NCBI RefSeq assembly: GCF_013168275.1
Contig: NZ_AP019547.1
Location: 1,488,001 to 1,552,000 of the forward strand
Source: Candidatus Nitrotoga sp. AM1P
GTDB taxonomy: Bacteria > Pseudomonadota > Gammaproteobacteria > Burkholderiales > Gallionellaceae
Reading direction: 5' to 3'
DNA: 64,000 bases
This document shows, piece by piece, positions 1 to 16,390 of the stretch. The notes under the pieces were generated by a model. The model was not told where the DNA came from and ran no database searches. It saw only the letters and a program-made list of their open reading frames with translations. Within the stretch, counting starts at the first letter, position 1, and every line of letters begins with the position of its first letter. A program made the translations under genes and the position numbers.

Positions 1-8
1 TTGTCCAT
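1..8 (-). CDS. Start of a further gene downstream of nxrD (partial)
   Basis: On the minus strand an ATG at 6-8 is preceded by AGGAG with a 6-base gap, a textbook ribosome binding site. Only the first two codons (Met-Asp) and part of a third lie in the window. The gene would continue the nxr transcription direction about 140 bp after nxrD. Nothing can be said about its product; a further nxr-operon member such as an electron carrier or transporter is possible but cannot be seen here. Confidence 0.35.
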
Positions 9-148
9 GAATAACTCCTTAATTCAGCGATCGGACAGTAAGATACATTTTTTTCAAAAAAAGATCTACAAAATGACATTAGCACGACACACAACCGAGC
101 TCTCGGCTACTATACATATACACAATTTAAATGGTACGAATACCCCCC

Positions 149-889
149 CTAATGCAGCGGCAACGGCTCATCCATTTCGTTACCGGTCTGTTGAGGACAA
201 TCCACCGGTCCCTCATAATCAGATTTGGGCAATTCTTTTATTCGGCTGTCTACTTCAATGCCAAAGAACTTGAGTTCCGAACCCATGAACTTTGATAACA
301 ACAGACCCAGGTTCCGGTAATAGGCTTCATTCGCTCTCGCCGCCAGATTTTCACCGAACACGCCGGTCCATTTCCCGATATGCTGCTCAAGAAACCGTCT
401 TTCCGCAGACAGGCAGATATCGATATTTTCTTCCATCGCCTGGTCCAGGGCATAGGCGATCTTCAATTCCAGAAAGCTCATGAACTCAAGCTCGACGGTG
501 ATCTGATCAAATGAAACCCCGGCATCGTCTTTCATCACAAAACCAAAGGCTTTATAGAAGCCACTGATGTCGCCCAGAATATTCGGCTGATTGAAGCTGT
601 TTTTCCCATAGGTGGTTTCACTCGACGGGCAAAACATACGGGTTAAAAACATTTCGGTAAAATCCGGCTGGAGCGCGGTCACGTCGACGGTCTCGATCAG
701 ACTGGTAAAGGCCTGGTACTCTTCCTTCATATCATAAGGAAGCAGGTTGATTGAACTATCCAGATCGGCGGCAAGTTCGTGCAAAGTGGCGAGTCTATCT
801 TTGTCTGGATAGACAAAGGCCATTGATAAAAACCTGTAAACATCTGCCCTCGCGAGGGCCAACTCTGTTTCCGATTTCGTCGTTAACAT
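149..889 (-). CDS. nxrD: TorD/NarJ-type chaperone for the Nxr molybdoenzyme (NxrD)
   Basis: This 246-aa soluble protein has no signal peptide. It is all-helical in appearance and opens with an ARADVYRFLSMAFVYP segment like the N-termini of TorD/DmsD/NarJ-family assembly chaperones. Such proteins bind the Tat signal of their partner molybdoenzyme in the cytoplasm and hold it until the cofactor and Fe-S clusters are inserted. Position supports this, since it is the last of four co-directional genes after the catalytic, Fe-S and haem subunits. A strong hairpin with a T-rich tail lies just upstream, so it is probably made at a lower level than the structural subunits. The family is assigned from length, the N-terminal pattern and context; the symbol follows the operon and is not a proven orthology. 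Confidence 0.72.
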   Translation of the reverse strand: MLTTKSETELALARADVYRFLSMAFVYPDKDRLATLHELAADLDSSINLLPYDMKEEYQAFTSLIETVDVTALQPDFTEMFLTRMFCPSSETTYGKNSFNQPNILGDISGFYKAFGFVMKDDAGVSFDQITVELEFMSFLELKIAYALDQAMEENIDICLSAERRFLEQHIGKWTGVFGENLAARANEAYYRNLGLLLSKFMGSELKFFGIEVDSRIKELPKSDYEGPVDCPQQTGNEMDEPLPLH

Positions 890-898
890 TCTATCCCC

Positions 899-935
899 TT
901 AAATAAAAAGTGGGGCGGCGTTTTAACGCCGCCCC
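899..935 (-). terminator. Intrinsic-terminator-like hairpin between nxrC and nxrD
   Basis: The arms GGGGCGGCGTT (912-922) and AACGCCGCCCC (925-935) are perfectly complementary over 11 bp. Read on the minus strand, the hairpin is followed by ACTTTTTATTT, the layout of a Rho-independent terminator. It lies 22 bp upstream of the nxrD start, inside the operon, so it more likely causes partial termination or mRNA processing than a full stop. Confidence 0.65.
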
Positions 936-956
936 CCTCATGTCAATCAATTACGA

Positions 957-2078
957 CTATTCAATTTCAAGCGGTATCCAGCCTCCGTTTGAATAGTTCT
1001 TGCGTGGTCCCCTGTTGCCGCCAGCGCCATTATTGTGATTTTTGCCATCCCAGGCAGCAATCGCCATCATGGTTTTGGAGCCAGGCTTCAGCACGGCATC
1101 CTGAGCATCACCGGAGTTTAACGGACGTTTGATGACAACCGACCAGTAGCCAAACCGTCTGACGCCATTGGCGGTTGCATTATTCTGAGCCTGCCGGGTC
1201 AGTGTTCCGTAGCCAACCGCATTGAGCTCTTCCACCGGTGTTAACCGCTCAGGGTCAACTCTGCTGAGGTTTCTGAGCTTGAAGGCCGCCAGATATTGCC
1301 GCTGACCTTCATTATAACGTCTGATAGGGGTGTCAATTGTTTGACCAATTGCCGGGATCACTTCCGGATACATATCATAGTTGTAATTGGGGTAAGCATC
1401 CCTGACGTCTTGATATCCAAACTCGATATCCCTTTCCCAGGCGGCCTTCCAGTAAACAATGTGAACCGGATTCTCTTCGTCACCCATCATGAAGGAGGGC
1501 TCCGATCCTGCATTCACCGGGAACATAATGGCGATCGCATCAGAGAACTTGTCTTCCATGACTTCCGTTTCAGACTTGGTTGCGTCATACCACGTCAACA
1601 AGAAGGCAATATCCTTGTCATTATGGATAGACTTGATCTTCACCAAGGGCACGGACGCCACGACTAAACCCGGCATCACGATGTTCTGCGGCCCCATGGG
1701 AACTTCAGTGGCCGAAGCATCACTCCAGATCGTGGCCGGGGCTTGCTCCCAGCTTTGATTGTACTGATTATAAGACGTTTCCCTGACTGGATCTTCCTGA
1801 TGCCAGGTCCGGTTCAGCGGGTCCATCGGGATTTCTCCCTTGACTGCCTTGGACTTGATGACGCCCTCGTTATACGTTTCCCCCCCATCCAGACGGACGG
1901 GTGGGAGCCTTTTGAAGGAACCATGGAACGCGTGACCCCCATACTGGCCAGGGTTATCAACCGCAATAATTGGAATCGCCAAATCTTGTGCCGGCCCGTG
2001 CGCAGCAGCACTCCCAAAGGCGGGAGTCGCAACCGGAATCATCAAGAGTGACGCAGCTATTAATAGTTTTTTCATCAT
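957..2078 (-). CDS. nxrC: Nitrite oxidoreductase gamma-like haem b subunit (NxrC)
   Basis: This 373-aa protein has a Sec-type signal peptide (residues 1-22, KK then a hydrophobic core ending ATPAFG), so it is periplasmic. The body resembles the gamma subunit of type II DMSO-reductase-family enzymes (ethylbenzene dehydrogenase haem domain). Visible family features are a FPV segment, then SFMMG near residues 195-199, whose second Met (M198) matches the axial haem Met of the family, then PVHIVYWKA. Near the C-terminus come YWSVVIKRPL and an AAWDG segment. In the complex it would take electrons from the Fe-S subunit and pass them to a periplasmic cytochrome c. It starts 7 bp after nxrB, so the two are probably translationally coupled. 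Haem ligation is inferred from the family. Confidence 0.8.
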   Translation of the reverse strand: MMKKLLIAASLLMIPVATPAFGSAAAHGPAQDLAIPIIAVDNPGQYGGHAFHGSFKRLPPVRLDGGETYNEGVIKSKAVKGEIPMDPLNRTWHQEDPVRETSYNQYNQSWEQAPATIWSDASATEVPMGPQNIVMPGLVVASVPLVKIKSIHNDKDIAFLLTWYDATKSETEVMEDKFSDAIAIMFPVNAGSEPSFMMGDEENPVHIVYWKAAWERDIEFGYQDVRDAYPNYNYDMYPEVIPAIGQTIDTPIRRYNEGQRQYLAAFKLRNLSRVDPERLTPVEELNAVGYGTLTRQAQNNATANGVRRFGYWSVVIKRPLNSGDAQDAVLKPGSKTMMAIAAWDGKNHNNGAGGNRGPRKNYSNGGWIPLEIE

Positions 2079-2085
2079 CCGCCCC

Positions 2086-3243
2086 TTATGAGTTATTGGT
2101 AAGAAATGCGCCGGTCTTCAAGTTCTTGACCTGCCTGATGTAGACAGGCTCAGTCAACGGAACCCGGATAATTTCTTTGCCTTGTGGATCATAACCAACC
2201 GTCTCATTACCCTCAAGCTTGAACGTGTCGCAGATCCGTTCAGTCGTTCCAAAGAGTAACAACGCGGCCAGAAGCTCCTTGTCCTTGCCAGCATTCCGGT
2301 ATTGCTTGATGGAGTTCTCAACGCCGGGGCCAAATACCTGGGACAGGAAATCAGGGTTAACATGAACAGGCGGCAGGTACATGTTGTTCGGCTCAGTACC
2401 AAACTGTGGATAGATCGGCAGTGCAATCTTCCGCACGTGCACCAGGAAGTCGATCGGGTTGTTTTCCCGCACTTGCTTGCTGTTGATCTTATCGTAATCG
2501 GCTGACTTGAAGCCAAACAGACGGATCTTTCCGATGCATTGCGTCACGCATTGCGTCATCAATCCCGCTTCTACTTTCGGATAGCACGAGATGCACTTTT
2601 CACCGGTCCGGGTGGTGTCGTTGTAAAACGACTTCTTGTACGGGCAGGCTGCAACACATTCTCTGTATCCGCGGCAGCGGGACGCATCAATCAACACGAT
2701 CCCGTCTTCCTGACGCTTGTAGATCGCCTTTCTCGGGCACGCCGCCAGGCAGCCAGGGAAGGTACAGTGGTTACATATCCGCGGGAAGAAAAAACCCCAG
2801 TTCTTATGCGTCGGGCCCTTGATATAGTCCCCTTCGCCATCCAGGATCTTAAGACACTCATCTTCACCCAGGTTCGGATGCGCATAGTCCATTTCATCCG
2901 GCAGATAGCCCTTGATCCGCTGGTTCATGCCCAGGTCTTCAAAGATCGTCGTGCCGTTGTACTTGTTACCCGACCACGGTTGCGCCTGTTCTCCCAGCAG
3001 GGCCAGAACCTTCACATCCCAGGCCAGCGGATAGAATCCATAAGGCTTCGATTCCACGTTATTCCAGAAGATGGTTTCCTGGCCTTTACCGGCCGTCCAG
3101 GTCGTTTTGCACGCCATGGTACACGACTGACAGGCGATACATTTATTCAGGTCGAACAGCATCGATACTTGCCGACCTGGCCTGTTTTCTTCGTAGGGGT
3201 AATCCATTTCCCTGCCCAGCTGCCAATTTCTAACTTTTGCCAT
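2086..3243 (-). CDS. nxrB: Nitrite oxidoreductase beta Fe-S subunit (NxrB)
   Basis: This 385-aa NarH/NxrB-type electron-transfer subunit shows four cysteine groups: C35/C38/C41/C45, C157/C160/C165/C169, C190/C196/C200 and C217/C220/C232/C236. In the third group Tyr193 stands where a fourth Cys would be. NarH has Trp there, and in this family the site carries a [3Fe-4S] cluster; the other groups suit [4Fe-4S] clusters. No signal peptide is present, as in relatives carried through Tat with the folded alpha subunit. A GGAG site lies 8 bases before the ATG. A hairpin sits in the gap after nxrA, and nxrC follows 7 bp downstream. The alternative reading, a periplasmic nitrate or (per)chlorate reductase beta subunit, cannot be fully excluded from one window. 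Confidence 0.88.
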   Translation of the reverse strand: MAKVRNWQLGREMDYPYEENRPGRQVSMLFDLNKCIACQSCTMACKTTWTAGKGQETIFWNNVESKPYGFYPLAWDVKVLALLGEQAQPWSGNKYNGTTIFEDLGMNQRIKGYLPDEMDYAHPNLGEDECLKILDGEGDYIKGPTHKNWGFFFPRICNHCTFPGCLAACPRKAIYKRQEDGIVLIDASRCRGYRECVAACPYKKSFYNDTTRTGEKCISCYPKVEAGLMTQCVTQCIGKIRLFGFKSADYDKINSKQVRENNPIDFLVHVRKIALPIYPQFGTEPNNMYLPPVHVNPDFLSQVFGPGVENSIKQYRNAGKDKELLAALLLFGTTERICDTFKLEGNETVGYDPQGKEIIRVPLTEPVYIRQVKNLKTGAFLTNNS

Positions 3244-3284
3244 TGTAGATCTCCATTTACAAAATTATTTCACAATTTCAAGAA

Positions 3285-3307
3285 CGCCGCCCCGCTTCAG
3301 GGCGGCG
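3285..3307 (-). other. GC-rich hairpin between nxrA and nxrB
   Basis: CGCCGCCC (3285-3292) pairs with GGGCGGCG (3300-3307) around a 7-base loop. On the minus strand it is followed by TTCTTGAAATT, a weak T-rich tail. It lies in the 78-bp nxrA-nxrB gap. It could stabilise the upstream message, mark a processing site or attenuate transcription; as a terminator it looks weaker than the nxrC-nxrD hairpin, with which it shares a GGGGCGGCGTT sequence. Confidence 0.5.
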
Positions 3308-3321
3308 GCTGCACACCGTCA

Positions 3322-6300
3322 TTAGCGGCTGATAAACCCGCCCTGGAGATAGGTCCTCATCTGAAGGCTCTCGTAGGTCGGCCGGTAGCCTTTAGCGGCA
3401 ATATGCCAAACACCGCCGTTGACACCGCCCTTTTCAGCCAGCTCGATCTTCACATACGATTCCTTGGGAGAACCATTGGCGCAGTGGACGTCATTCTGCA
3501 TCCCGATAATGATTTCCTGCCCGAAGACCTTCTTGTTGGCCACGGTGTCCGTCGTGTTAGTCGGGTTAATCCACGCGCGGGTGCAGCTTTGGTGGTTTCC
3601 GGAGCGGAACATGGCCTGATAGTTGGTCCGCGGGCTCTTCGCCAATCCATCCGCCCGGGTCCGCGCACCTTCCATACTGCCATACGTGGCAGCATAGGCG
3701 TTGTAGTACATCCGCATGGAACCTTGCGACATACCGGGGAAGTATCTGCATCTGACCATGAACCGGGCCAGCGCATACTCCGGGGTGCCTTCTTTCCAGC
3801 CTTTGTAAGGACGGTCGCCAGGATCCGCATCCACCCAGATGTAGTCGCCTTCATCGATACCAAAGCGCTTGGCGTCGAGCGGGTTGACGTCCACGAATCC
3901 TTCACCCACGGACGGTTGACGCTTGTCATGACGGTAGATGTCGCCAAACGGTCCCCACCACAGGGTCATCAAGTCCGTATCAATCGGAGTGGTGTGCGCG
4001 CCGTGCCGGTACTTCGGTGAATTGAAGCAGAACTCATACCCGTGCGGCCGCAGCGGATGGGTGGTCGCCATCAGCTCTTTGGTCGTCAGGATGACATTTC
4101 GACCTTGCCGGTTCTCGGCAATCTTGAGGCTGTTGCCCATTCTTTCCAGACCGCGCATTTCAGGGGTTTCCATCAATGCAAACGCACGGCTGTTACCGAC
4201 GATGACGTTCGGCTCGTAGTGGCTTGAATCAATCGGGGTACGATACACGGTAAGATTCTCGCCGCCATCAATCAACCGCGGGTCATCCATGTAGAATTCC
4301 AACCGACCGCTCTTGGTGTACCAGGGCAAGCCGCCGCCTTCAGCCGTTTGTTCCCAGCCGCTGATTCTCGGATAGGTTCTGGCCATGAAGATGGTCGGAA
4401 CGCCGCGCTTGGCTTTTTCGCGGATTTCAGCAAAAACCATCCCGCGGGTGGCAGAGCCGGCGTTGAGAACCCGTTGGCCATAAACTTCGGAATCCCGGTC
4501 TGCCGGATTGCCGGCCGGGTTGGTGCCCACAAACTTGAAGTAGTCGGCAAACCGTTGATCACCGGTCAGCGCGGTAAAGGCTCTGAAGATGCCAGCAGGC
4601 ACTTCAGCATCGCCTACGGTATCCTGGAACCGTCTCAACGGGGTGATCGGGGAAACGGTCAGGAACGGGTTGGAGCAGGAGCAGGCCATGTCGGTATGCT
4701 TGTTTTCCAACCAGGAGTCCACACCCCAGACGATGTCGGAATATTCGCACGATGCCGTCCAGTTCCAGTCACTGTAGAAGATCGCTTCCCATCTCGGCAG
4801 GGTATTGACGACCATGTCGTAGTGACCTTTGGCATTGCCCAGTGAGGAGTTGGAGTTCGCTTGCCACAACACCTTGGTCGGTGCCGGCATATGGCCGGGA
4901 TCCGTCAGCAACCGGGTTCCGTTCCGTAAAGGCCGATCGCCATAGTTGTAGTAGTGGGCCGATTCGTCATCGGTATAGTGCGCCAATTTGGTGACCATCT
5001 TACGGCCATCCAGCTCAGGATTGAACGGATCTTCCAGAAGGTACTGACCAAACCCGCCAAAGACGGACTGTCTGTAGTTACCCACGTAGTTACCAAACGT
5101 ACATCCGCCAATATGGCCAACGTTATCGCTCAGGGCCGATAACAGCATGAAGCCACGATCCTTCAGGGTCGAATTGAAGTAGTGATTGGTACCCGCACCC
5201 GTACTGATGATGCCTTGCCCTCTGTGCTTGTGGAACAGGTTGGCCAGGTCAACAATGGCTTCCATCGGAGCGCCGGTCATGATCGAGGTGTTCTCGGCCG
5301 TGTATTCCTCCAGGTATTCTTTGTGCAACTGGAACACAGTCGTCACCTTGATCTTCTTGCCGTCGACCAGGGTCACTTCATAATCGCCGGTCAACGCGGA
5401 GTCAACGCCCTTCGCCGCATAGCGCGCGCCGCATTCATCCCGCGTCAGCGGCACGGCTTTGTTGGTCTTTCTATCCCATACTACATTGTCGCCCCAGAAC
5501 TTGCGGACTTCTTCTGAAACAAAGGCCGTGGATTGGAAAGCCACCGGTTGCGTCGGATTTTCACCCGGCTTCATCACCTTGAGATGGTGCGTCAGTTCGG
5601 CCAGCTTGTAGTCCGGAAAAATGTCCGAGGCCTTCAGGTTTTTCCAGTTATCCGTTCTGATCAACAGCGGCATGTCCGTATTGGCTCTCAGATAATTCTC
5701 GTCGTACTGATTATTCTTGATGAGCAGATGGCACACACCCAGACCCAGCGCCGGATCCGTACCGGGCCGAATAATAATGACGTCATCCGCCTTGTTCGCG
5801 GTCGCGTGGTAGTCGATGGAGATGTCGACGATATGGCAGCCCTTGAGCCGTGACTCGCTGACCCAATGAAGGTCAGGCATCTTGGTACAGACGAAGTTGT
5901 TTCCCCAGAATACAATCAGCTTGGCGTGCTCATAAACCATGAACTCGTAATCCAACATCTGATGGCCAGTCACCATAGGACATCCGGGCGCCAGATCGGT
6001 ATGCCAGGAGTAGCTGTCCAATACTTTGGCGCCGCTCGCTTCGTCCGGCCCAATATTTCTGACATAGGCGTCCAGCAGTGCCAATCCTTGCGAAAACCGC
6101 TTCAGCGAATAGATTCGTAACACGCCCAGGGCGGCCATCCCCGCACGGAATTTCATGGTCTTACAGCCGCAGCCGTGCATCGACGCAATCATCTCCGGGT
6201 CATAGCCTTGACGCGTCAGCAATGCAGCGCCTTTGTCGCCGGAATAGGTCCGCGCGATGTTCTCCAATGCGCCAGCGGCCAACGCGTACGCCTCGGTCCA

Positions 6301-6831
6301 GGGCAGCTTGATGAAGGGCTCTTTGCCGCGTTGCAGATACTTTTGATCGGGGAAGCCGTTTGCGCCCGTCCGCGGATAGCCCGCTTCTGCCCAAGCCTTG
6401 AAGCCGGTTCTGACCATCGCGCCCTTGGGCCGCCTGTCAGAATAGGCCTTTCTGTTCATGACCATGCCCTTGTTACAGATCCGCGGCTCCCACCGGTGAC
6501 TGGAACGGTTTCCATCCATATCTTCGGCATCTCCGTAGCCGTACGACGGCGAGATGCGGATGACGACGTCATTCTTTACGTGGGCCTTGAGCAGGCAGTT
6601 GTGCGTGTCATTCGGCGCACACAGAAATATAAATTCGCTGTCAACATGGAACATGTCCCGGTAAACCTTCTCCCAGTCTCTATTCGGGTAGGACTTCAGA
6701 GGGTTGTCAACGACATACGGCTTCAGAAACGGTGAAGCTGCAAAGGCGTTATTGGCCATTACAGCGAGTCCGGCGGTGGCAGACAGCTTCAGAAAGCTGC
6801 GCCTGCCTATGTTGTTCTTGATTTCCATCAT
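3322..6831 (-). CDS. nxrA: Nitrite oxidoreductase alpha catalytic subunit (NxrA), Tat-exported
   Basis: This 1169-aa molybdopterin oxidoreductase belongs to the type II DMSO reductase family. It starts with a twin-arginine signal (GRRSFLK, residues 9-15, hydrophobic core, AFA-AS cleavage near 31), so the active site is periplasmic. Aligning the segment CAPNDTHNC (71-79) plus ICNKG (C119) with NarG suggests FS0 ligands C71, D75, C79 and C119, with Asp replacing one Cys. HTDLAPG places D279 at the Mo-ligating Asp of NarG-type enzymes. WEPRICNKG and RRPKGAMVR are typical of periplasmic Nxr-like proteins. It would oxidise nitrite to nitrate and pass electrons to NxrB. The start is set by AGGGGTGAC 5-8 bases upstream of two adjacent ATGs. 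Known Nxr forms and nitrate reductases share this fold, so the direction of catalysis is inferred. Confidence 0.85.
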
Positions 6832-6904
6832 TTAGTCACCCCTATGTTAATTTAAATTAAATTATTTTCTCGGTTTTATGTTAAGGCATCAATCCGAGTA
6901 ATTT

Positions 6905-7040
6905 TCATTCACTACTCTAACTTGAAACAAAAAAACAACAATATTTCATGCCGCAAAAACTAATTTTTCAGTACATACCACAGTCAGTCACACCCTGAAT
7001 ATACGGATTTTTATGGAAGCAAAAATCGGGTAGTGAATGA
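6905..7040. repeat. 11-bp inverted repeat with 114-bp spacing upstream of nxrA
   Basis: TCATTCACTAC (6905-6915) is the exact reverse complement of GTAGTGAATGA (7030-7040). The distal copy overlaps the transcription start expected from the FNR-type box; the proximal copy lies 74 bp before the nxrA ATG. The spacing suits two binding sites for one regulator with DNA looping. No known regulator motif is recognised. Confidence 0.5.
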
Positions 7041-7045
7041 TCGCG

Positions 7046-7086
7046 AATCTACGCGGATAAATTAAAGTCGATTTGATATAGATCAA
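7046..7086 (-). promoter_or_regulatory. FNR/CRP-family operator with candidate nxrA promoter
   Basis: TTGATATAGATCAA (7073-7086) matches the palindromic FNR/Anr/Dnr consensus TTGAT-N4-ATCAA at every fixed position. On the minus strand a -10-like TAGATT (complement of 7046-7051) is centred 31 bases downstream of the box centre. This is close to the class II arrangement, with the activator near -41.5 replacing a -35 element. Transcription would then start near 7038, giving a leader of about 200 nt before nxrA. The box is read directly; the promoter assignment is inference. Confidence 0.55.
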
Positions 7087-7234
7087 GTTTCTGCTATTTT
7101 TTTGACAGGCTTGATTCACTCCCAAGATTCGTACATATAGATGCACACCTCATTGACCTTTGTAAAGAATTCAATATAAAAATGGCTCTCTGTAGAAATA
7201 GCGCGGGTAGTCGAATTTCATTTTTCCGTTTAAT

Positions 7235-8471
7235 CCCAGATTGTCCATTAGCGCGAAATCAGCTATGTTTCAAAGCGCGGGTGATCTAACTTTGCATACT
7301 TTTTCTAATGGATACCAATAGAAAACGACGATGCGGCTAGTCAATTGATTAAATGACATAAGAATCGATAAATGAGGTGATAGATGGCGACCGACTCTGA
7401 CTTTGAGATGCGCTTCAGCAATCGAGAGGTGAGTGCATGGGGTGGATTAGCGCTTCTTAAGCGCGTGCTCAATGTAATTGGTTTTCGTACGGCTGCTCGA
7501 AGCTGGGGTTTGCCACAGCCTGGCTCAAACCGTGGCTATCCACCGATCCAGATTGTGGAACAGTTTATTGTCAGCATCTGGTGTGGTGCCAATCGTTTTC
7601 CATGCTGAAATCACCCGTTTCGACAAGACCCTAACGCGTCTGTTTGAGTGGAAACATGTAGCGGGCCACAAGTCCATTGTGCGATTGTTCGCCAAATTTG
7701 ACATGGCACGTAACGAGAACGTGCAAGCCCAAATTTATCGTTGGATATTTGACCACATCCGATTCGATCGAATTACGCTGGATATGGATTCCACCGTGAT
7801 AACGCGCTATGGCACTCCAGAAGGCGGCGCCAAGGGTTACAACGCTGCCAAACCGGGGCGGTTATCGCACCACCCACTGCTCGCATTTGTAGCCGAATGC
7901 CGCATGGTGACTAACTTCTGGTTACGTCCAAGTAACAGCAGTAGCGCCAACAATACGCTGCAATTTTTGGAATCAACTCTCCCCCACCTGGAAAGCAAGA
8001 TCGTTGGACTATTACGTGCTGACAGCGGGTTTTACGATGATGCCATTCTCACCTTCCTGCAAGGTCGCCACATCGACTACATTATAAGCGCCAAGCTCAC
8101 GCATGGACTACAACGTGCCATTGCCGAGCGGGTCACTTGGTGGAGCGTTGAGCGTGGACTGGAGATCGGTGAACTGAATCAGGCTCAAGGCTGGAGTGCG
8201 CCGCGCCGTATCATAGTGGTGCGACAATACGCTGTGATGAGTTTGTTTCGGCAAGCTGTGTTACGAGGCTCGGTACAACATACCCTTGCCACCTTGCATC
8301 ACAAGGTATTTGCAGTAGGGGCGTTCTGGCACAAAAACTCAGACAAGCGACAACTAAACTTGGCGGTGAGTCGACAACGAAGAGCTTGGTTTGAGGGACT
8401 CTGGACTAATGCAGGTAATGCCTGGCATGACGATAACACTGTCCCGCAGAATCTCTAATGGACAATCTGGG
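7235..8471 (+). mobile_element. Defective IS1380-family insertion sequence with target duplication
   Basis: The ends are perfect 17-bp inverted repeats, CCCAGATTGTCCATTAG at 7235-7251 and its reverse complement at 8455-8471. The 5-bp direct repeat TTAAT flanks them (7230-7234 and 8472-8476). The single gene inside encodes an IS1380-type DDE transposase, now broken. The element is 1237 bp, shorter than intact family members, in line with an internal deletion in the transposase. Confidence 0.88.
7384..8458 (+). pseudogene. IS1380-family transposase, frameshifted and internally deleted
   Basis: A GAGGTGAT site precedes the ATG at 7384. The first 73 codons read well up to CGANRF, then the frame breaks near 7602 and resumes one frame over at HAEITRFDKT. 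The middle has the first catalytic Asp region (LDMDSTV) and the second (LLRADSGFYDD). After RRIIVVRQ the protein jumps directly to YAVMSLFRQAVL. In the family roughly 80-90 residues lie between these, including the DAEN-type segment with the catalytic Glu. The reconstructed protein of about 358 aa therefore lacks the third catalytic residue and cannot be active. The stop lies inside the right inverted repeat. Confidence 0.88.
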
Positions 8472-8729: not shown

Positions 8730-9830
8730 GGCGGATTCAAGTTCGAAGTGCAACAGGTAATGCTAGCTTGGTGTAGCGCACCTCTACCCCAAATAGTACT
8801 TCATGCGGTGATCTGAAACCCAGCACTTTGCGTGGCCGGTGGTTGAGTCGTTCTACCGCTCGCTGCACTTGCTCCTCGGTAACGTCAGTCAACGCCATGC
8901 CCTTGGGGAAGTACTGCCGCAATAACCCATTACTGTTCTCGTTCAGACCTCGCTCCCAGGAACGGCAGGGGTGCGCGAAATAGATCGCAGTCTGTAGTTC
9001 TGCTGCGATGCGTTCATGTCCCGCAAACTCTTTGCCGTTATCGAATGTAATGGCGTGGCATTGGTCTTTATGGGGACTCAGCAAACTCGTTGTCATGGCC
9101 GTTACACCCTCGGCATGTTTGCTGCGTAGGTGCCCCGCCAACACATAGCGCGACTTCCTTTCAGCCAGGGTAACCAGTCCACCTTTGTGGTTCTTGCCGA
9201 TGACGGTATCACCTTCCCAATCTCCATGCGCGTCTTTTGGTCAACGATTTCCGGATGTTCATCAATGCTGACACGGTTCTTGATCATGCCTCGCCGCTCT
9301 TGCCCACTTGCATATCGCTTGCGGCGTGGTTTCTGGCTTCGCAAATGCCGGCACAGGTCACCTCCATCACGTTTGTCTGCGTAGACATGCCGGTAGATCG
9401 CCTCATGGCTGATCTGCAGTTCGCCCTCCAGCTCAAGCCGATTGGCGGCTTGTTCTGGGCTGAGGTCATCCCGGATCAACCTCTCGACTTCCACCCATTC
9501 ATCCCATGAGAAGCACTTGCCATTCGTACAGGCTTGCTTGCGCTCATCACGTAACGATTGCGCCTGCTTTGGTCGCCAGCCGCGTTGACCTTTGTTTCGC
9601 CTGAACTCCCGTGAAATCGTCGACTTGTCCACGCCCATCTTTTGGGCAATCCGAGTTTGATTCAAACCCGCTTGTTTCAATTCGTAAATCTGATATCGTT
9701 GCCCGCTGGTGCGCTGCTTGTATTTCTTCATCTGTGCTCCTTTTACTTGGTCATTTAAGTGGCTCCGATATTAACGCAGCTCGCCACTTAAATTCACTTA
9801 CAAAAGTTGCACTTCAGTGTTGAATCCGCC
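8730..9830 (-). mobile_element. IS30-family insertion sequence with GCA target duplication
   Basis: The ends at 8730-8754 and 9806-9830 are imperfect inverted repeats of 25 bp, both starting GGCGGATTCAA and ending GAAGTGCAAC in element orientation. The triplet GCA flanks the element on each side (8727-8729 and 9831-9833), the short duplication expected of IS30. The 1101-bp body holds one transposase gene on the minus strand, broken by a frameshift. It lies 258 bp from the IS1380 element; that gap contains no recognisable gene. Confidence 0.88.
8737..9731 (-). pseudogene. IS30-family transposase with one frameshift
   Basis: The N-terminal part (9731 to about 9208) begins MKKYKQRTSGQRYQIY and carries a helix-turn-helix (TRIAQKMGVDKSTISREFRRN). 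The reading frame breaks at the sequence CGCATGGAGATTGG; restoring one base gives the family motif GDWEGDTVIG with the first catalytic Asp. The C-terminal part continues in another frame through FDNGKEFAGHE (second Asp) and ERGLNENSNGLLRQYFPKG (catalytic Glu), ending inside the terminal repeat. All three catalytic residues survive, so only the frame is lost. IS30 elements are not generally known to use programmed frameshifting, so a decayed gene is the simplest reading; a sequencing error is also possible. Confidence 0.88.
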
Positions 9831-9841
9831 GCACTTGATTT

Positions 9842-11068
9842 TCATCCACTGATGTCATTAGTGAACCCGTTGCGCACCCGCTTCTGCCAGCCCTCCATCC
9901 AGCCGGGCAAATCCGCTGCCAGCATGGGCCGGGATATGAAAGCCCCTTGAGCGAGATCGCATCCCGTACGAAGAAGGAGATCCCAATCATCTCGGTCTTC
10001 GACTCCTTCAGCCACGACTTCCATGCCCAATTGCCTTGCCAAAGCCAGGCTGGCATCGTACATCGCCCGTAACGTCTCAACGGTCCAGGCGCGGTGCACG
10101 AAGCCTTGGTCGATCTTGAGTTCATCGAAGGGAATGTCGCGTAACTGGGCCAAGGAAGAGTGTCCGGTGCCGAAATCGTCGATTGAAAGGCGAAAACGCT
10201 TCAAGCGCAGCCGGGTCAGGATTTCAAGCGGAATCCGCGCATCCCTCATTAACTGGCTTTCTGTCACTTCCAATACTATCTCCTGCGGCGGTATACCTAT
10301 CTTAGCGGTAAGCCCGGTAACAAAATCCAAAAAATCCAGGGACGTCAGGCTGTCCATAGATACATTGACGGCCACCCGCAACGCCAGCCCTGCTTCCTGC
10401 CAAATTTTGGCCTGGGCTAGCGCGCTGGTGAGCACCACCCGGGTCAGACCGTCAATCAGACCGTTCGCTTCAGCTACGCCGATAAATTGATCGGGTGGCA
10501 CTATCCCGTGAACGGGATGGCGCCAGCGCACCAAGGTCTCCACGCCCGCCACTCTACCGGTGGCAACCATCACCTTAGGTTGGTAGTAATTGACCAGCTC
10601 GCCGTTGTTGATGGCAGCACGCACCTCGTCCGCGCTGTAAACTTTCTGCGCCACCCGAGGGCTATCCAGTGAAGAAGGTGCCCACTTTTCCAACAATGCG
10701 GACAATGCCTCCGGTTTGACCGGTTTATGTATATGTCCAAGCACTGTAATTTTATGAGCTTGCACCAGTTTCTCGACAGTCTGCAACATCCGTTCATCTT
10801 CACCGCTGATCAAGATGAGGCTGCCGGTATAGTTCCGTTCAACCAAATGACGAACAAATTCGATTCCGTCCATTTCCGGCATATTAAGATCCAGCAGGAT
10901 CAGGTTCGGCCGGGTATCAACGCCATCTACTCGATCCAGGGCGGCTCGCCCACTCTCGCAGAGCGTAACCGATGTAAACCCCTGGTTTGTCAGCATGCGG
11001 GCCAACAGTTTGAGCATGAATGACTCGTCGTCGAGCACCAAAATTTTTACCATGCTTCTTTCAATCAT
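9842..11068 (-). CDS. REC-EAL response regulator, c-di-GMP phosphodiesterase (RocR-like)
   Basis: This 408-aa protein has a receiver domain (residues about 6-125; acidic D13/D14, phospho-Asp D60 in LLDLNMPEMDG, K116) followed by an EAL domain (about 145-400). The signature reads ETL at E177, then NVS, EVTES, SIDDFGTGHSSL, DELKIDQ and VVAEGVE, the metal- and substrate-binding set expected of an active phosphodiesterase that cleaves c-di-GMP. The start at 11068 is chosen because AGGGAGAAGG directly precedes it; the longer upstream reading has no such site and an unlikely composition. It follows the haem-domain histidine kinase by 38 bp in the same direction, so the two most likely form a phosphorelay that lowers c-di-GMP. 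It resembles the RocR type of Pseudomonas in layout. Confidence 0.88.
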   Translation of the reverse strand: MIERSMVKILVLDDESFMLKLLARMLTNQGFTSVTLCESGRAALDRVDGVDTRPNLILLDLNMPEMDGIEFVRHLVERNYTGSLILISGEDERMLQTVEKLVQAHKITVLGHIHKPVKPEALSALLEKWAPSSLDSPRVAQKVYSADEVRAAINNGELVNYYQPKVMVATGRVAGVETLVRWRHPVHGIVPPDQFIGVAEANGLIDGLTRVVLTSALAQAKIWQEAGLALRVAVNVSMDSLTSLDFLDFVTGLTAKIGIPPQEIVLEVTESQLMRDARIPLEILTRLRLKRFRLSIDDFGTGHSSLAQLRDIPFDELKIDQGFVHRAWTVETLRAMYDASLALARQLGMEVVAEGVEDRDDWDLLLRTGCDLAQGAFISRPMLAADLPGWMEGWQKRVRNGFTNDISG

Positions 11069-11106
11069 CACCTTCTCCCTAATTTTTTCCCGGCACGGAA
11101 TTATGT

Positions 11107-14100
11107 TTATAAAGAACCAAGATATTCGTCCACAATAACCATTTCCGCCTCGAAGCGAGGCAACAACACCGCCAATGCTTCGGTGTCGCCCACCTTCCCC
11201 GCCTGTTCCATTTCGGCACACAGTTCGCCCAGCATTAGCGCGCCGACCGACCGAGCTGATGATTTGAGCTTATGGGCTGCCGCGCTGACTGCCGCCGCCT
11301 GTCCCAGCTGAAAAGCGATTCGCAACTCTACCGCTATTCTGGCTGAACTGGAGCGAAAATCTCGCAAAAATTCGCTGATCACAGCCGGATCGTTCCCTAC
11401 CAATCCTTCCAGAACACTCACATCCACCGGCTCTGCCGCCATGGCGGGTGTGAAGGGCATCGCAGGCGTGACTGTTAGGTTCGGACTGGAGTCAACGGTC
11501 AACAACCACTGCTCCAACATAGATTTCAAATCAGTAAGTTGAACCGGCTTGCTCAAATAATCGTCCATGCCGACGGTACGGCAATGCTCGGCCTCGCCTT
11601 TAAGAGCGTTGGCGGTCAGGGCGATGACCGGGATGCGCCGCTTGTCAGCTTTATTGGCCTCGGCGACGCGGATGGCCACAGTCAATTGATAGCCGTCCAT
11701 TTCCGGCATATGCAAATCGGTGAGCAGCAACGCATAGTCACCGCTCTCCCAGCGTTTCAGTGCTTCGCGACCGTCGCTGGCGATATCTGCGGCATATCCG
11801 AGCAGCGCGAGCTGTTGCCGGATCACTTTCTGGTTGATTTCATTGTCTTCAGCTACCAAAATCAACCTGCCCTGCTGCAAAGCCATCGCGCGCGACGGTG
11901 GGGTGATCGTTGTCTCGATCTTGCCGGGAAGCGGCACTTCGTCTTCCTCATGCACCCGCCCTGCGGCGATGGCCACTGCCCGGAGAAAGGATTGGGGATG
12001 CATAACATCGCCATCCAGTGTAACAAGATCCATCGTTTCGACGCGTCCCCGACGACGGTGCCCGCGCCGAATGACGACAAAACGGGGGTCGATATCAGGC
12101 TGATGATGCCCATGCTCGACCACCACGAAATGTAGATCCAAGTCAGATCGAGCGCGGCAGGCAGCACGCAATTCCTCGATCGGTGGTACATCGTGCCCTG
12201 CGTCAATAATGAGCAACCACAAGCCGGACGGCAGCGTATTGATCCGTTTGCGAGCGGCGGTCAGATCCGGCACCCGCTCAACGATCGCACCGCTATCTCT
12301 CAGATAGACGGCCAAGTCGTCGCCCAATCCGTTTTCGTCGCCTAGCACCAGACAGGAAAGCCCAGTCAGGTCAACAGTTTTGCTACCAACGGCGGACTTG
12401 ATCGGCGGCAGCGCAAGCGGTAACCGCACGGTAAAGGTAGAGCCCTTGCCCGGCGCGCTCTGTACCACGATCTCCCCACCCATCAACTCCACCAGATGGC
12501 GTGAGATGGCCAACCCCAGTCCGGTGCCGCCAAAGCGCCGGGTGGTGGAAGCGTCGCCCTGGGTAAAGGAGGTAAAGAGCCGGGACTGGGTCTCCTCATC
12601 CATGCCGATGCCGTTGTCGGTTATCTGAAACTCCACCGTCACTTGATCGGGGCCAGGCTTGGCCAACAATGCGCGCACCGATACCCGACCTGGTTGCTGT
12701 TGTTGTCCGCTGGAAAACTTGATGGCGTTATTGGCGAGATTGACCAGCACTTGACGCAGACGCAGAGCATCACTCAAAACCTCTTCGGGAATTGCCGGAT
12801 CGATGAACAGAGTAAGCTCCACGCCTTTCTTTACGGCCAGGTGCTCCAACATATCGCAAGCCTTCACAACCACGTCCGCCACATGCGTAGGCACGCGCTC
12901 GACCTCCAACTTGCCGGCTTCTATCTTGGAGAAATCGAGAATGTCCTCGATGATATCCAGCAAAGCAAAAGCCGATTCTCGGATGAGATTGACCATCTCC
13001 ATTTGATAGCCATTGAGACTGGTTTGCTGTAGCACGTCGGCCATGCCAATCACACCGTTCATAGGAGTGCGGATTTCGTGACTCATAGCCGCAAGAAAAG
13101 CCGATTTGGCCTGATTGGCCTGTTCGGCCTCAGACCGGGCCTGCTCCAAGTCTTTCATGATGCGTACACGTTCACGGACGTCGCGCAAAATGCCTGTGAA
13201 ATAACGTTTTTCCCCAACAAAATATTCACTAACAGCAAGATATAACGCAATGCGTTCGCCATTCTTGTGCAGGCCTTCGAGTTCACGTCCAATACCAATA
13301 ATGTGTGCCTGCCCGGTTTGGTAATACCTCTCCATATAACCGTCGTGGCCGCTACGGTGAGGCTCTGGCATAAGCATAGAAACATTTTGTCCGATTACTT
13401 CATCGCGGGTATAACCGAAGAGCTTTTCCACGACCGGGTTGGCAGAACGGATGATGCCTTTTTCGTCGATGGTAATGACGCAATCCACCAAATGCTCAAC
13501 CACAGAGCGAATTTCCTCTTCCTTGATCGTCATGGCTACATTGGCCTGCTCCAGATCGGCAGTACGCTGCGCCACTTGATGCTCCAATTCCACTGACACA
13601 CGTCGTAAGCGCGTGATTACCAATGCAAGCCCCCCCAACCCCAGCGCCAGCAGTGTGCCAAAGAGAATAAAGACGTCGCGCAGATCGGCTCGACTTTGCG
13701 CCACTACACGGTCTAATGGTCGAACAATCTCTAGCACACCGCGCACATCCCCTACTTTCCAGTCATGCTTAGGGCTGTCTGGACGTGCATTGTGGCAGCT
13801 TATACATTCCGCGTGCATGACATCCGCCGTCGCGTAACGTAGCGATGCGCGTCCCTGAAAATCTTCAAAACGATAGTAGGGCTGTTGTGGATTCGCCTGC
13901 AACGCAGCCAAAGCCTGTTGCTCAAAATCATCACGCGCACCGCCATCCTTGCGCCAGGGGAAGGGATAATTGCTATATAAACGCACCACCATGCCAGAAC
14001 CGCGCAAACTAATCCTTCTGCCAAGTTCCATACTGAAGGTGGCAGGTAAGGGTATCGCTCCTGGTTTATCCAGGTAATCGTGGATCACTTCAATATTGTG

Positions 14101-14373
14101 GCCATTCACACGATCCACAACTTCAGAAGTGTATAAGTTGCGCAGTTCCATTAGGGATTCTGCATGTAACGTAATGCCCTGCAGTGCGGCGGATTGCACC
14201 AGGGTGGTCGTGGCGTGAGATAAATACCACAAAGCAAGTAACGTACCGCTACAAAAGATAAGACTCAGTACCAGAATAGTGTGCTTATAGAGCGGGAGCA
14301 GGCACGCGGCCCAAAGTCTTTTCAATCGTTGACGCAAATCGGTTGAAATTACTGATAAGTTTGCTGATCGCAT
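11107..14373 (-). CDS. Hybrid histidine kinase with periplasmic c-type haem sensor domain
   Basis: This 1088-aa membrane kinase has TM1 at about residues 31-52. A periplasmic domain (about 53-230) resembles the Tll0287/DUF3365 haem-PAS type and contains CISCH at 190-194, a covalent haem c site. TM2 is at about 233-255. Then come PAS (about 285-400), HisKA with phospho-His H432 ([13 protein letters not shown]), a HATPase, and a receiver-like domain that has lost its usual Asp context. A canonical receiver follows ([14 protein letters not shown]), then a C-terminal Hpt domain ([10 protein letters not shown]). AGGAC precedes the ATG. The architecture fits a BarA/ArcB-like relay that senses redox state or a small ligand (NO, nitrite, O2) at a periplasmic haem and passes phosphate to the adjacent REC-EAL protein. 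The ligand is not known. Confidence 0.85.
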
Positions 14374-14706: not shown

Positions 14707-14843
14707 AGAAAAATCAGATTTATTTGTTAAACTCGTTTATCAACAGGCGAGGTTTGACAAAAGTTCGATTTCTCGGGTTGTAAATCGTCGCTGTGATTGT
14801 GTTAAAATTGTCAGTATCATTGGCATCGAAACAATTTTTCCGG

Positions 14844-14921
14844 TTCCGAGGGGCGCTGCGACCTTGCATCAGACGAGGCCAGGCTTGGAACACTGGGGTA
14901 TATCTGTAGCAACGGCGCTCA
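14844..14921 (+). ncRNA. SAH riboswitch (S-adenosylhomocysteine) upstream of ahcY
   Basis: The leader contains TTCCGAGGGGCGCTGCGACC (14844-14863), then CCAGGCTTGGAAC and finally GCAACGGCGCTCATTC. These are the conserved blocks of the SAH riboswitch: CCGAGG, GCGCUGC, and the distal AACGGCGCUC that pairs back to form the pseudoknot. The distal block lies 27 bp before the ahcY ATG, close enough to control ribosome access. In this class SAH binding turns expression on, so ahcY rises when its substrate accumulates. The downstream membrane-protein gene and metF would respond with it if co-transcribed. Confidence 0.9.
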
Positions 14922-14947
14922 TTCATTAACTTGAATGGAGAGAAAAT

Positions 14948-16390
14948 ATGAACGCCGTTACCAACGCTGGATTTACCGACTACAAAATTGCCGACATCAA
15001 TCTTGCTCCTTGGGGACGCAAGGAAATTGCTATTGCCGAAACTGAAATGCCGGGCTTGATGGCGATTCGCGAAGAATATGCAGATGCACAACCGTTGCGC
15101 GGTTCACGCATTGCCGGTTCGCTGCATATGACCATCCAGACAGCCGTACTGATTGAAACCTTGAAAGCCTTAGGAGCAGAGGTACGCTGGGCTTCCTGCA
15201 ATATATACTCCACCCAGGATCATGCGGCATCAGCTATAGCCGTAGGCGGTACACCGGTATTTGCAATCAAAGGCGAATCACTTGAAGAGTATTGGGAATA
15301 TACCCATCGCATCTTCGAATGGCCTAACGACAATCACGCCAACATGATTCTGGACGATGGTGGTGATGCGACCTTATTATTGCATCTGGGTGCGCGTGCC
15401 GAAATAGATGCGTCGCTTATCAGCAAGCCCACTTCAGAAGAAGAAACTTTCCTGTATGCCGCAATCAAACAGCGCCTTGCTACGCAGCCTGGCTGGTATT
15501 CCAAACGTTTGGCGGCAATTAAAGGGGTGACGGAAGAAACTACAACCGGCGTGCATCGTCTGTACCAGATGCATGCGCGCGGCGAGCTGAAATTCCCTGG
15601 TATCAACGTCAACGATTCAGTTACCAAATCCAAGTTTGACAACCTGTACGGTTGCCGAGAATCACTGGTGGATGGCATTAAACGTGCAACCGATGTAATG
15701 ATTGCGGGGAAAATTGCCGTTATTGCCGGTTACGGAGATGTAGGAAAAGGCTCGGCACAAGCAATGCGCGCCCTGTCGGCCCAAGTTTGGGTAACGGAAA
15801 TTGATCCGATTTGCGCGCTGCAAGCTGCCATGGAAGGCTATCGTGTGGTTACCATGGATTACGCTGCTGAACATGGCGATATTTTCGTGACCTGCACCGG
15901 TAACTACCATGTGATCACTCATGAGCATATGAAGAGCATGAAGAATCAGGCCATCGTGTGTAATATTGGCCATTTCGACAACGAAATTGACGTTGCCTCG
16001 CTGAAGGCTTACACGTGGGATAACATCAAACCACAAGTCGATCACATCATTTTCCCCACAGTAGATGGTCAACCCGCCAAGCGCATCATTCTGCTGGCCG
16101 AAGGCCGCTTGGTGAATCTAGGTTGTGGCACGGGCCATCCTTCTTATGTGATGAGCTCCTCATTTGCCAATCAGACCATCGCCCAGATCGAACTATGGAG
16201 CGAGTCAGAAAAGGGCACCGGCAAATATCCGGTCGGCGTGTATACCTTGCCCAAACATCTGGATGAAAAAGTAGCAGTATTGCAATTGAAGAAGCTTAAT
16301 GCACAACTGAGTACACTGACAGATCAACAAGCCGCTTACATCGGCGTGCCTAAAGAAGGACCTTACAAATCGGATCATTATCGCTACTAA
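14948..16390 (+). CDS. ahcY: Adenosylhomocysteinase
   Basis: This 480-aa cytosolic enzyme hydrolyses S-adenosylhomocysteine reversibly to adenosine and homocysteine, removing the by-product of all SAM-dependent methylations. The NAD-binding segment is [14 protein letters not shown] (about residues 257-270), with [17 protein letters not shown] for substrate binding upstream and the conserved KSDHYRY C-terminus that completes the neighbouring subunit's NAD site. It has the longer form usual in proteobacteria, with an insert before the NAD domain. A GGAG site sits 7 bases before the ATG. The SAH riboswitch lies directly upstream and metF is two genes downstream, forming a methyl-cycle operon. 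Confidence 0.97.

Follow-up and report, generated by a model that had tools for sequence, protein, structure and literature searches.

A nitrite oxidoreductase operon of Candidatus Nitrotoga at three loci, one of which carries a divergent NxrA

The window analysed here, 64,000 nucleotides from Candidatus (Ca.) Nitrotoga sp. AM1P (C1:1488001-1552000 of a one-contig genome of 3,008,303 bases, 99.95% complete), contains a four-gene operon, nxrA, nxrB, nxrC and the chaperone gene nxrD, which occurs at two further loci of the same genome. This raises the question of which enzyme the operon encodes, and of how its copies stay nearly identical while one of them retains a divergent catalytic subunit. 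We believe it very probable that this is the nitrite oxidoreductase (NXR) operon of Ca. Nitrotoga, held at three loci that have been homogenised by gene conversion, with a divergent NxrA at locus b and a linked gene for a NUBPL-type ATPase, a probable carrier protein.

The enzyme and its organism

First, all four open reading frames (ORFs) lie on the minus strand in the order nxrA, nxrB, nxrC, nxrD, where the preliminary description of the window had placed an nxrABC-chaperone operon, and their Pfam families agree with it (Table 1). At the level of sequence, Pfam and NCBIfam place the encoded proteins as type II dimethyl sulfoxide (DMSO) reductase subunits with a chaperone. Read by eye, the N-terminus of NxrA contains the stretch GRRSFLK, of the twin-arginine translocation (Tat) type, and that of NxrC is hydrophobic and signal-like, of the general secretory (Sec) type. 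The closest solved relatives of NxrA, NxrB and NxrC are subunits of one complex, the NXR of Kuenenia stuttgartiensis (7b04), with bit scores of 780, 379 (chain 7b04_A) and 90; A and B are homologous over their full length, and C belongs to the same family. In the Kuenenia enzyme, the FS0 cluster is held by C67, D71, C75 and C115, the substrate Asn is N70 and the molybdenum (Mo) ligand is D275 (PMC8387239). Mapped onto it, the equivalents in NxrA are C71, D75, C79 and C119, N74 and D279, with all four FS0 ligands (three Cys and one Asp), the substrate Asn and the Mo-ligand Asp conserved, and in NxrC the MMGD motif that starts at M197 is aligned to the RMGD carrying haem ligand M155 in the Kuenenia subunit. 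NxrA also has the Mo-site motif published for Ca. N. fabula, Y-4x-D-11x-QM (PMC6050957), in the form of Y274, D279, Q291 and M292. The final motif residue, 292, stands 13 residues past the Mo ligand and, judging from the motif, would lie spatially near the Mo centre; the conserved Gln before it is followed by Thr in Kuenenia, whereas Nitrotoga has Met or Gln.

Perchlorate reductase (4ydd) and ethylbenzene dehydrogenase (2ivf) likewise belong to the type II DMSO reductase family, and the latter has an EB_dh-type gamma subunit, but they match NxrA with 151 and 95 bits as against the 780 of Kuenenia NXR. For the cytoplasmic NarG-type nitrate reductases, with which the Nitrobacter-type NXR is grouped and which carry no export signal, the equivalog TIGR01580 scores 123 bits against a cut-off of 1084, and the models for perchlorate, selenate and chlorate reductases and dimethyl sulfide and ethylbenzene dehydrogenases reach 254 of 985 bits (TIGR03479) and 109 of 2000 (NF042978). 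Since every NCBIfam model listed for the operon proteins falls below its own cut-off, the enzyme stands outside those curated types. A search of this genome for a NarG-like gene gave no match at E <= 1e-3.

Second, the 16S rRNA gene identifies the genome as Ca. Nitrotoga. It is 99.7% identical to that of the one-contig genome G095, 99.6% to G101 (CP45), 99.5% to G099 (LAW) and G107 (HW29), and 98.6% to G096 (Ca. Nitrotoga fabula ZN8), the last four having been matched to their strains by nxr contigs; identity to a one-contig genome from another Gallionellaceae genus is 94.4%. Records named as Ca. Nitrotoga match the nxrA gene with 95-99% identity (95% for the fabula isolate ZN8), and RuBisCO (1 match) and haem-copper oxidases (3 matches) were found in the genome. 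The outcome of a non-nitrifier, which the preliminary description had allowed for, is thus not borne out.

In a 77-row tree (IQ-TREE, LG+C20 with posterior mean site frequencies, quick mode), composed of 18 locus proteins and 59 of 240 listed homologues (the best 120 of 2390 and the best 120 of 2270), all 14 Nitrotoga rows form one group with a support of 100 in the Shimodaira-Hasegawa-like approximate likelihood ratio test (SH-aLRT). On the opposite side, also with support of 100, stand 16 rows of the Kuenenia group, whose names include Brocadiia, Nitrospinota and NC10 and in no case Nitrospira; NxrA therefore falls outside the Nitrospira/Nitrospina/anammox-type clade and, unlike in its full-length homology, parts company with Kuenenia here. 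Its sister, with support of 100, comprises ten rows: three from G071, two from G093 and the database proteins P0002, P0004, P0005, P0006 and P0008. SerA, ClrA, DdhA, PcrA, NarG and EbdA are outside the tree's rows, PcrA and NarG having been compared by score alone. The distance of this Nxr from those of other lineages, asserted at the outset, is upheld by the separate Nitrotoga clade and by the low score of the NarG model. By its sequence the operon is a true Nitrotoga NXR, as had been supposed from the beginning and as 16S, nxrA identity, conserved metal sites and clade all support, and the type is already in print.

The NXR of Ca. N. fabula consists of nxrA, nxrB, a putative nxrC and a chaperone at two identical loci (Kitzinger et al., 2018, PMC6050957). 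The operon in the window is alike in its four genes, the motif and the presence of more than one locus, and the N-termini of A and C, as read by eye, resemble the published Tat signal on A and Sec signal on C; it differs in having three loci, of which b lies under distinct upstream DNA and has a divergent NxrA with a motif ending in QQ. In lake Nitrotoga, short reads suggest two nxrAB copies where assembly yielded one (PMC9239080). Seven of the 19 Nitrotoga-genus genomes (G097, G102, G103, G104, G105, G111 and G112) have no nxrA, which may reflect binning loss or real absence; the latter is conceivable because 108 Antarctic single-cell Nitrotoga genomes yielded no NxrA, and a NarG-like gene in three (PMC12361377).

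Three loci, two forms of NxrA and a linked ATPase gene

Third, the operon lies at locus a (in the window), locus b (1.62 Mb) and locus c (C1:1.93 Mb). Copies a and c, with identical nxrA, have 8.5 kb in common at 99.98%, a block which reaches about 1.36 kb beyond the left edge of the window and there takes in a gene for a NUBPL-type ATPase. With locus b the match is limited to 6.7 kb, which begins 35 nt ahead of the nxrA start codon and stops just past the chaperone gene. G095 has three operons too, and the orthologous flanks pair G000a (G000 being this genome) with G095c, G000b with G095b and G000c with G095a; this one-to-one pairing makes the three loci older than the split between the two. 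Around locus b the flanks of the two genomes are 93.7 and 94.7% identical over 4.0 and 9.9 kb, and paralogous flanks give no alignment save a 184-base match at 76%.

Within each genome the copies show no mismatch in nxrB (0/1158), nxrC (0/1122) or nxrD (0/741), as against 76/1158, 60/1122 and 33/741 between the genomes (4-7%). Among the variable sites of nxrA, 120 are split by species, 10 by locus, 113 concern a single lineage, 2 are crossing and the last 5 fit none of these patterns. Nonsynonymous (dN) over synonymous (dS) divergence of nxrA is 0.0089/0.0469 and 0.0095/0.0761 between paralogues a and b (ratios 0.19 and 0.12) and 0.0064/0.2455 and 0.0138/0.2113 between orthologues (ratios 0.03 and 0.07). 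These data are best explained by concerted evolution, of which gene conversion between the loci would be the economical cause, and the two identical loci of N. fabula agree with this (PMC6050957).

The nxrA of locus b differs from that of a and c at 60 of 3510 sites in this genome and at 83 of 3510 in G095, with 52 and 72 of the differences in the first half of the gene. At ten sites b is alike in both species against a and c, and five of these fall within codons 287-292. In both genomes, a and c read ATG at codon 292 where b reads CAG, and the motif of locus b accordingly ends in QQ. The Gln version occurs in 2 and the Met version in 12 of the 19 Nitrotoga-genus genomes; both one-contig genomes carry the two versions, and the ten drafts with nxrA carry Met only, which is compatible with a hidden Gln copy because drafts merge operon copies. 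Among the 240 listed homologues, 8 were dropped for want of the motif, and in the other 232 the position is Met once (in the Nitrotoga cluster) and never Gln. Four residues are shared by both b copies, of which Q292 and E425 remain b-specific, position 425 being variable. S288 and K454 were considered as innovations of b and rejected: they occur in 9 and 8 of 10 draft copies, so that it is the a and c copies that changed there.

Upstream, the 35-nt leader is the sole stretch that locus b has in common with a and c, and a gene for an AraC-type regulator lies about 1 kb off in the opposite orientation. This upstream region is present at length (matches of at least 893 bases) in five genus genomes, namely this one, G095, G098, G107 and G109, and as short matches only in four more. 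In the three drafts among the five, the b contig stops inside nxrA, after codon 199 in G098 and about 21 nt in for G107 and G109.

Does the divergence of b matter to the cell? It could be drift, or an imported allele without functional meaning in which M292Q is incidental, and we give this explanation an even chance. The confinement of Gln to the two one-contig genomes fits it, as does the frequency of S288 and K454 in other Nitrotoga. Drift sits less well, however, with nxrB, nxrC and nxrD that are fully alike in both species while the nxrA of b differs, with dN/dS that is higher between paralogues than between orthologues, and with a codon 292 that changed identically in both species.

The likeness of the copies could also stem from recent, independent duplications in each species, driven for instance by insertion sequences (IS), and not from conversion of old loci. 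Transposase genes do stand beside copy a, but all three loci have orthologous flanks in G095, their paralogous flanks are nearly unalignable, and the same target sites and end points would have to have been hit independently in both species; we hold this to be distinctly unlikely. A composite IS-borne element was rejected as well, given transposases on one side of copy a only, old loci and unrelated flanks.

After copy a, at C1:1486639-1487598 just left of the window, lies the gene for a NUBPL/Mrp-type P-loop ATPase (family assigned from the G071 homologue, PF10609), which also follows copy c and was not seen after locus b. At E <= 1e-80 it is present in 12 of 158 Gallionellaceae genomes, all of them among the 14 with nxrA of more than 60% identity, compared with none of the 144 without (Fisher 2.8e-16); within the Nitrotoga genus the counts are 10 of 12 and 0 of 7 (p 0.0007). 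In the two exceptions, G107 and G109, the nxr contig is short and stops before the place of this gene. Going by its family, the protein is probably an Fe-S cluster carrier for NXR. The main text of the N. fabula paper does not name a NUBPL/Mrp gene (PMC6050957).

Based on these observations, we propose that NxrA would oxidise nitrite to nitrate at a Mo-bis(molybdopterin guanine dinucleotide) (Mo-bisMGD) centre, with D279 as Mo ligand and N74 as substrate Asn, and that electrons would pass from one NxrA Fe-S cluster through those of NxrB to a b haem of high potential in NxrC, a soluble subunit, and then presumably through a periplasmic cytochrome c to a haem-copper oxidase. NxrD would mature NxrA ahead of Tat export, with NxrB probably travelling along with NxrA, and the NUBPL-type ATPase encoded after copies a and c would probably be a dedicated cluster carrier. 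Ectopic gene conversion would keep the three loci alike, and locus b, under other upstream DNA, would retain its divergent NxrA.

Several points weigh against this explanation. Homogenisation was tested in two genomes only, G000 and G095. The association of NUBPL with nxrA spans three genera, but ten of the twelve genomes belong to a single genus, in which the loss of one contig would take both genes with it. A search for ammonia monooxygenase was uninformative, as the control genomes were silent. Nitrite oxidation by this strain is suggested by analogy to cultured relatives, and the direction of the reaction cannot be fixed from the genes, since Kuenenia NXR runs in both directions (PMC8387239). 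The enzyme might thus be physiologically a periplasmic nitrate reductase, and the wider NxrA clade does hold putative nitrate reductases and a characterised one from Hydrogenobacter (PMC6050957). We nevertheless find this very improbable, in view of the 16S identification and because gene content and motif are the same as in Ca. N. fabula, a bacterium that grows on nitrite (PMC6050957). An assembly artefact, for which the near-identity of the copies alone speaks, can practically be dismissed: the genome is a single contig, every locus has flanks of its own, G095 has the three loci too, and in draft assemblies of other strains the contigs break off close to the borders of the unit or right at them.

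Sister operons in other Gallionellaceae

A survey of 103 genomes described nxrAB within Gallionellaceae as exclusive to Nitrotoga (PMC10734462). Our search of 158 family genomes contradicts this, as two with other genus labels, G071 and G093, carry nxrA homologues. G071 has three full-length genes (65-67% identical) and G093 one full-length and one cut by a contig end (67-68%); the nxrB of one G071 copy is also cut by a contig end. Their NxrA proteins, overall 64-68% identical to that of Nitrotoga, belong to the sister clade described above. The G071 operon has the order nxrA-B-C-D, NUBPL and a Sel1-type gene, the last two 78 and 52% identical to those of the window locus, and that of G093 has the same order from nxrC onward; unlike the Nitrotoga operon, both have D and NUBPL separated by a further gene, for an Fe-S protein. 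In another difference from Nitrotoga, paralogous nxrA genes diverge in these other genera by about 10-14% of nucleotides in G071 and 7% in G093. Between G071 copies 1 and 2, dS is 0.39 in nxrA, 0.16 in nxrC and 0.03 in nxrB, a pattern of homogenised nxrB and diverged nxrA that resembles that of Nitrotoga. At the position of residue 292, the G071 copies have Thr, Cys and Cys; of the two in G093, one has Cys and the other Asn, preceded by Met instead of the Gln.

Among 399 genomes drawn from the order, homologues above 60% were found in Nitrotoga only (G071 and G093 were not among the listed rows), and seven genomes outside the family have homologues of 39-50%. The 16S genes of G071 and G093 were looked for and not found, so their placement rests on genus labels and a neighbouring gene: one G071 nxrA has an ABC (ATP-binding cassette) transporter 1.7 kb upstream, with an identity of 93% to its counterpart in G087, which has the same genus label, and of 74-78% to those of Nitrotoga. 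Near two of the G071 operons there are two copies of a gene for a protein of about 608 amino acids (L053 14332-16158, plus strand; L054 6336-8165, plus strand) with 83.6% DNA identity.

Together, these findings allow a broader reading, which we advance tentatively and with rather less than even confidence: Nitrotoga may have two NXR isoenzymes, with the b NxrA held apart, differently tuned and separately regulated, a similar design in other Gallionellaceae, nitrite oxidation in the family that is wider and perhaps older than Nitrotoga, and a dedicated NUBPL carrier. The isoenzyme part is suggested by Gln in place of Met near the Mo site and by a promoter region of its own with an AraC-type regulator gene.

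Neighbouring features and implications

Table 1. Features of the window (positions within the 64,000-nucleotide stretch)
Feature	Position	Strand	Basis or remark
nxrA copy a, catalytic Mo-bisMGD subunit, 1169 aa	3322-6831	minus	ORF and Pfam Molybdopterin PF00384
nxrB, Fe-S subunit, 385 aa, without a visible signal peptide	2086-3243	minus	Pfam Fer4_11 and others
nxrC, haem b subunit, 373 aa	957-2078	minus	Pfam EB_dh PF09459
nxrD, TorD/NarJ-type chaperone, 246 aa	149-889	minus	Pfam Nitrate_red_del PF02613
nxrA codon 292 (ATG, Met)	5956-5958	minus	Gln (CAG) at locus b, here and in G095
6.7-kb unit common to all three operon copies	144-6866	minus	99.1% to locus b
Window share of the 8.5-kb block matching the copy at C1:1.93 Mb	1-7155	minus	99.98%
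nxrA 35-nt leader	6832-6866	minus	likely ribosome-binding site
Transposase region beside copy a	7478-8458	plus	
Transposase region	8737-9731	minus	HTH_38
Response-regulator/EAL protein	9842-11221	minus	adjoins the hybrid sensor kinase
Hybrid sensor kinase near copy a	11107-14373	minus	Tll0287-like domain containing CxxCH
S-adenosylhomocysteine (SAH) riboswitch	14842-14927	plus	RF01057, 56.9 bits
480-aa ORF	14948-16390	plus	directly 3' of the riboswitch

Sigma-70 promoter signals in window 6700-7500 numbered 2 against 2.3 expected and were not above chance. Of the two transposase regions, the HTH_38 one, which we take to be IS30-like, is broken into two ORFs that overlap in different reading frames. 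The Tll0287-like domain of the kinase is, from its CxxCH, a possible haem sensor, and the ORF that follows the riboswitch presumably encodes an adenosylhomocysteinase. An ABC-transporter gene near copy a was rejected as part of the system, being present in 132 of 158 family genomes (E <= 1e-220).

As far as the literature was searched, four points appear to be new: the evidence for gene conversion, the isoform of locus b, the linkage of a NUBPL gene to nxr, and sister operons outside Nitrotoga. No literature was found that joins nxrA with gene conversion, and for nitrite oxidoreductase with concerted evolution only a Chloroflexi review surfaced; the available sections of two further papers mention neither nxr copy number (the review PMC8494671) nor 'nxr' (PMC8415719). 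Gene conversion among the loci is a warning that nxr sequences are unfit for naive counting of copies or lineages, and drafts merge the copies. Three nxr copies may already have been reported by Boddicker and Mosier in 2018 and by Ishii and colleagues in 2020.

Finally, if two forms of NxrA do coexist in a cell, the cell could thereby make use of nitrite over a wider range, and the two forms would be traceable by reads across a single codon. Kitzinger et al. (2018) left undecided whether this NXR arose within Nitrotoga or came from elsewhere (PMC6050957). This can now be tested directly, as two other genera hold a sister clade that shares both the operon and its downstream genes. By their sequences, G071 and G093 are candidate nitrite oxidisers, which a survey confined to the genus Nitrotoga would miss.

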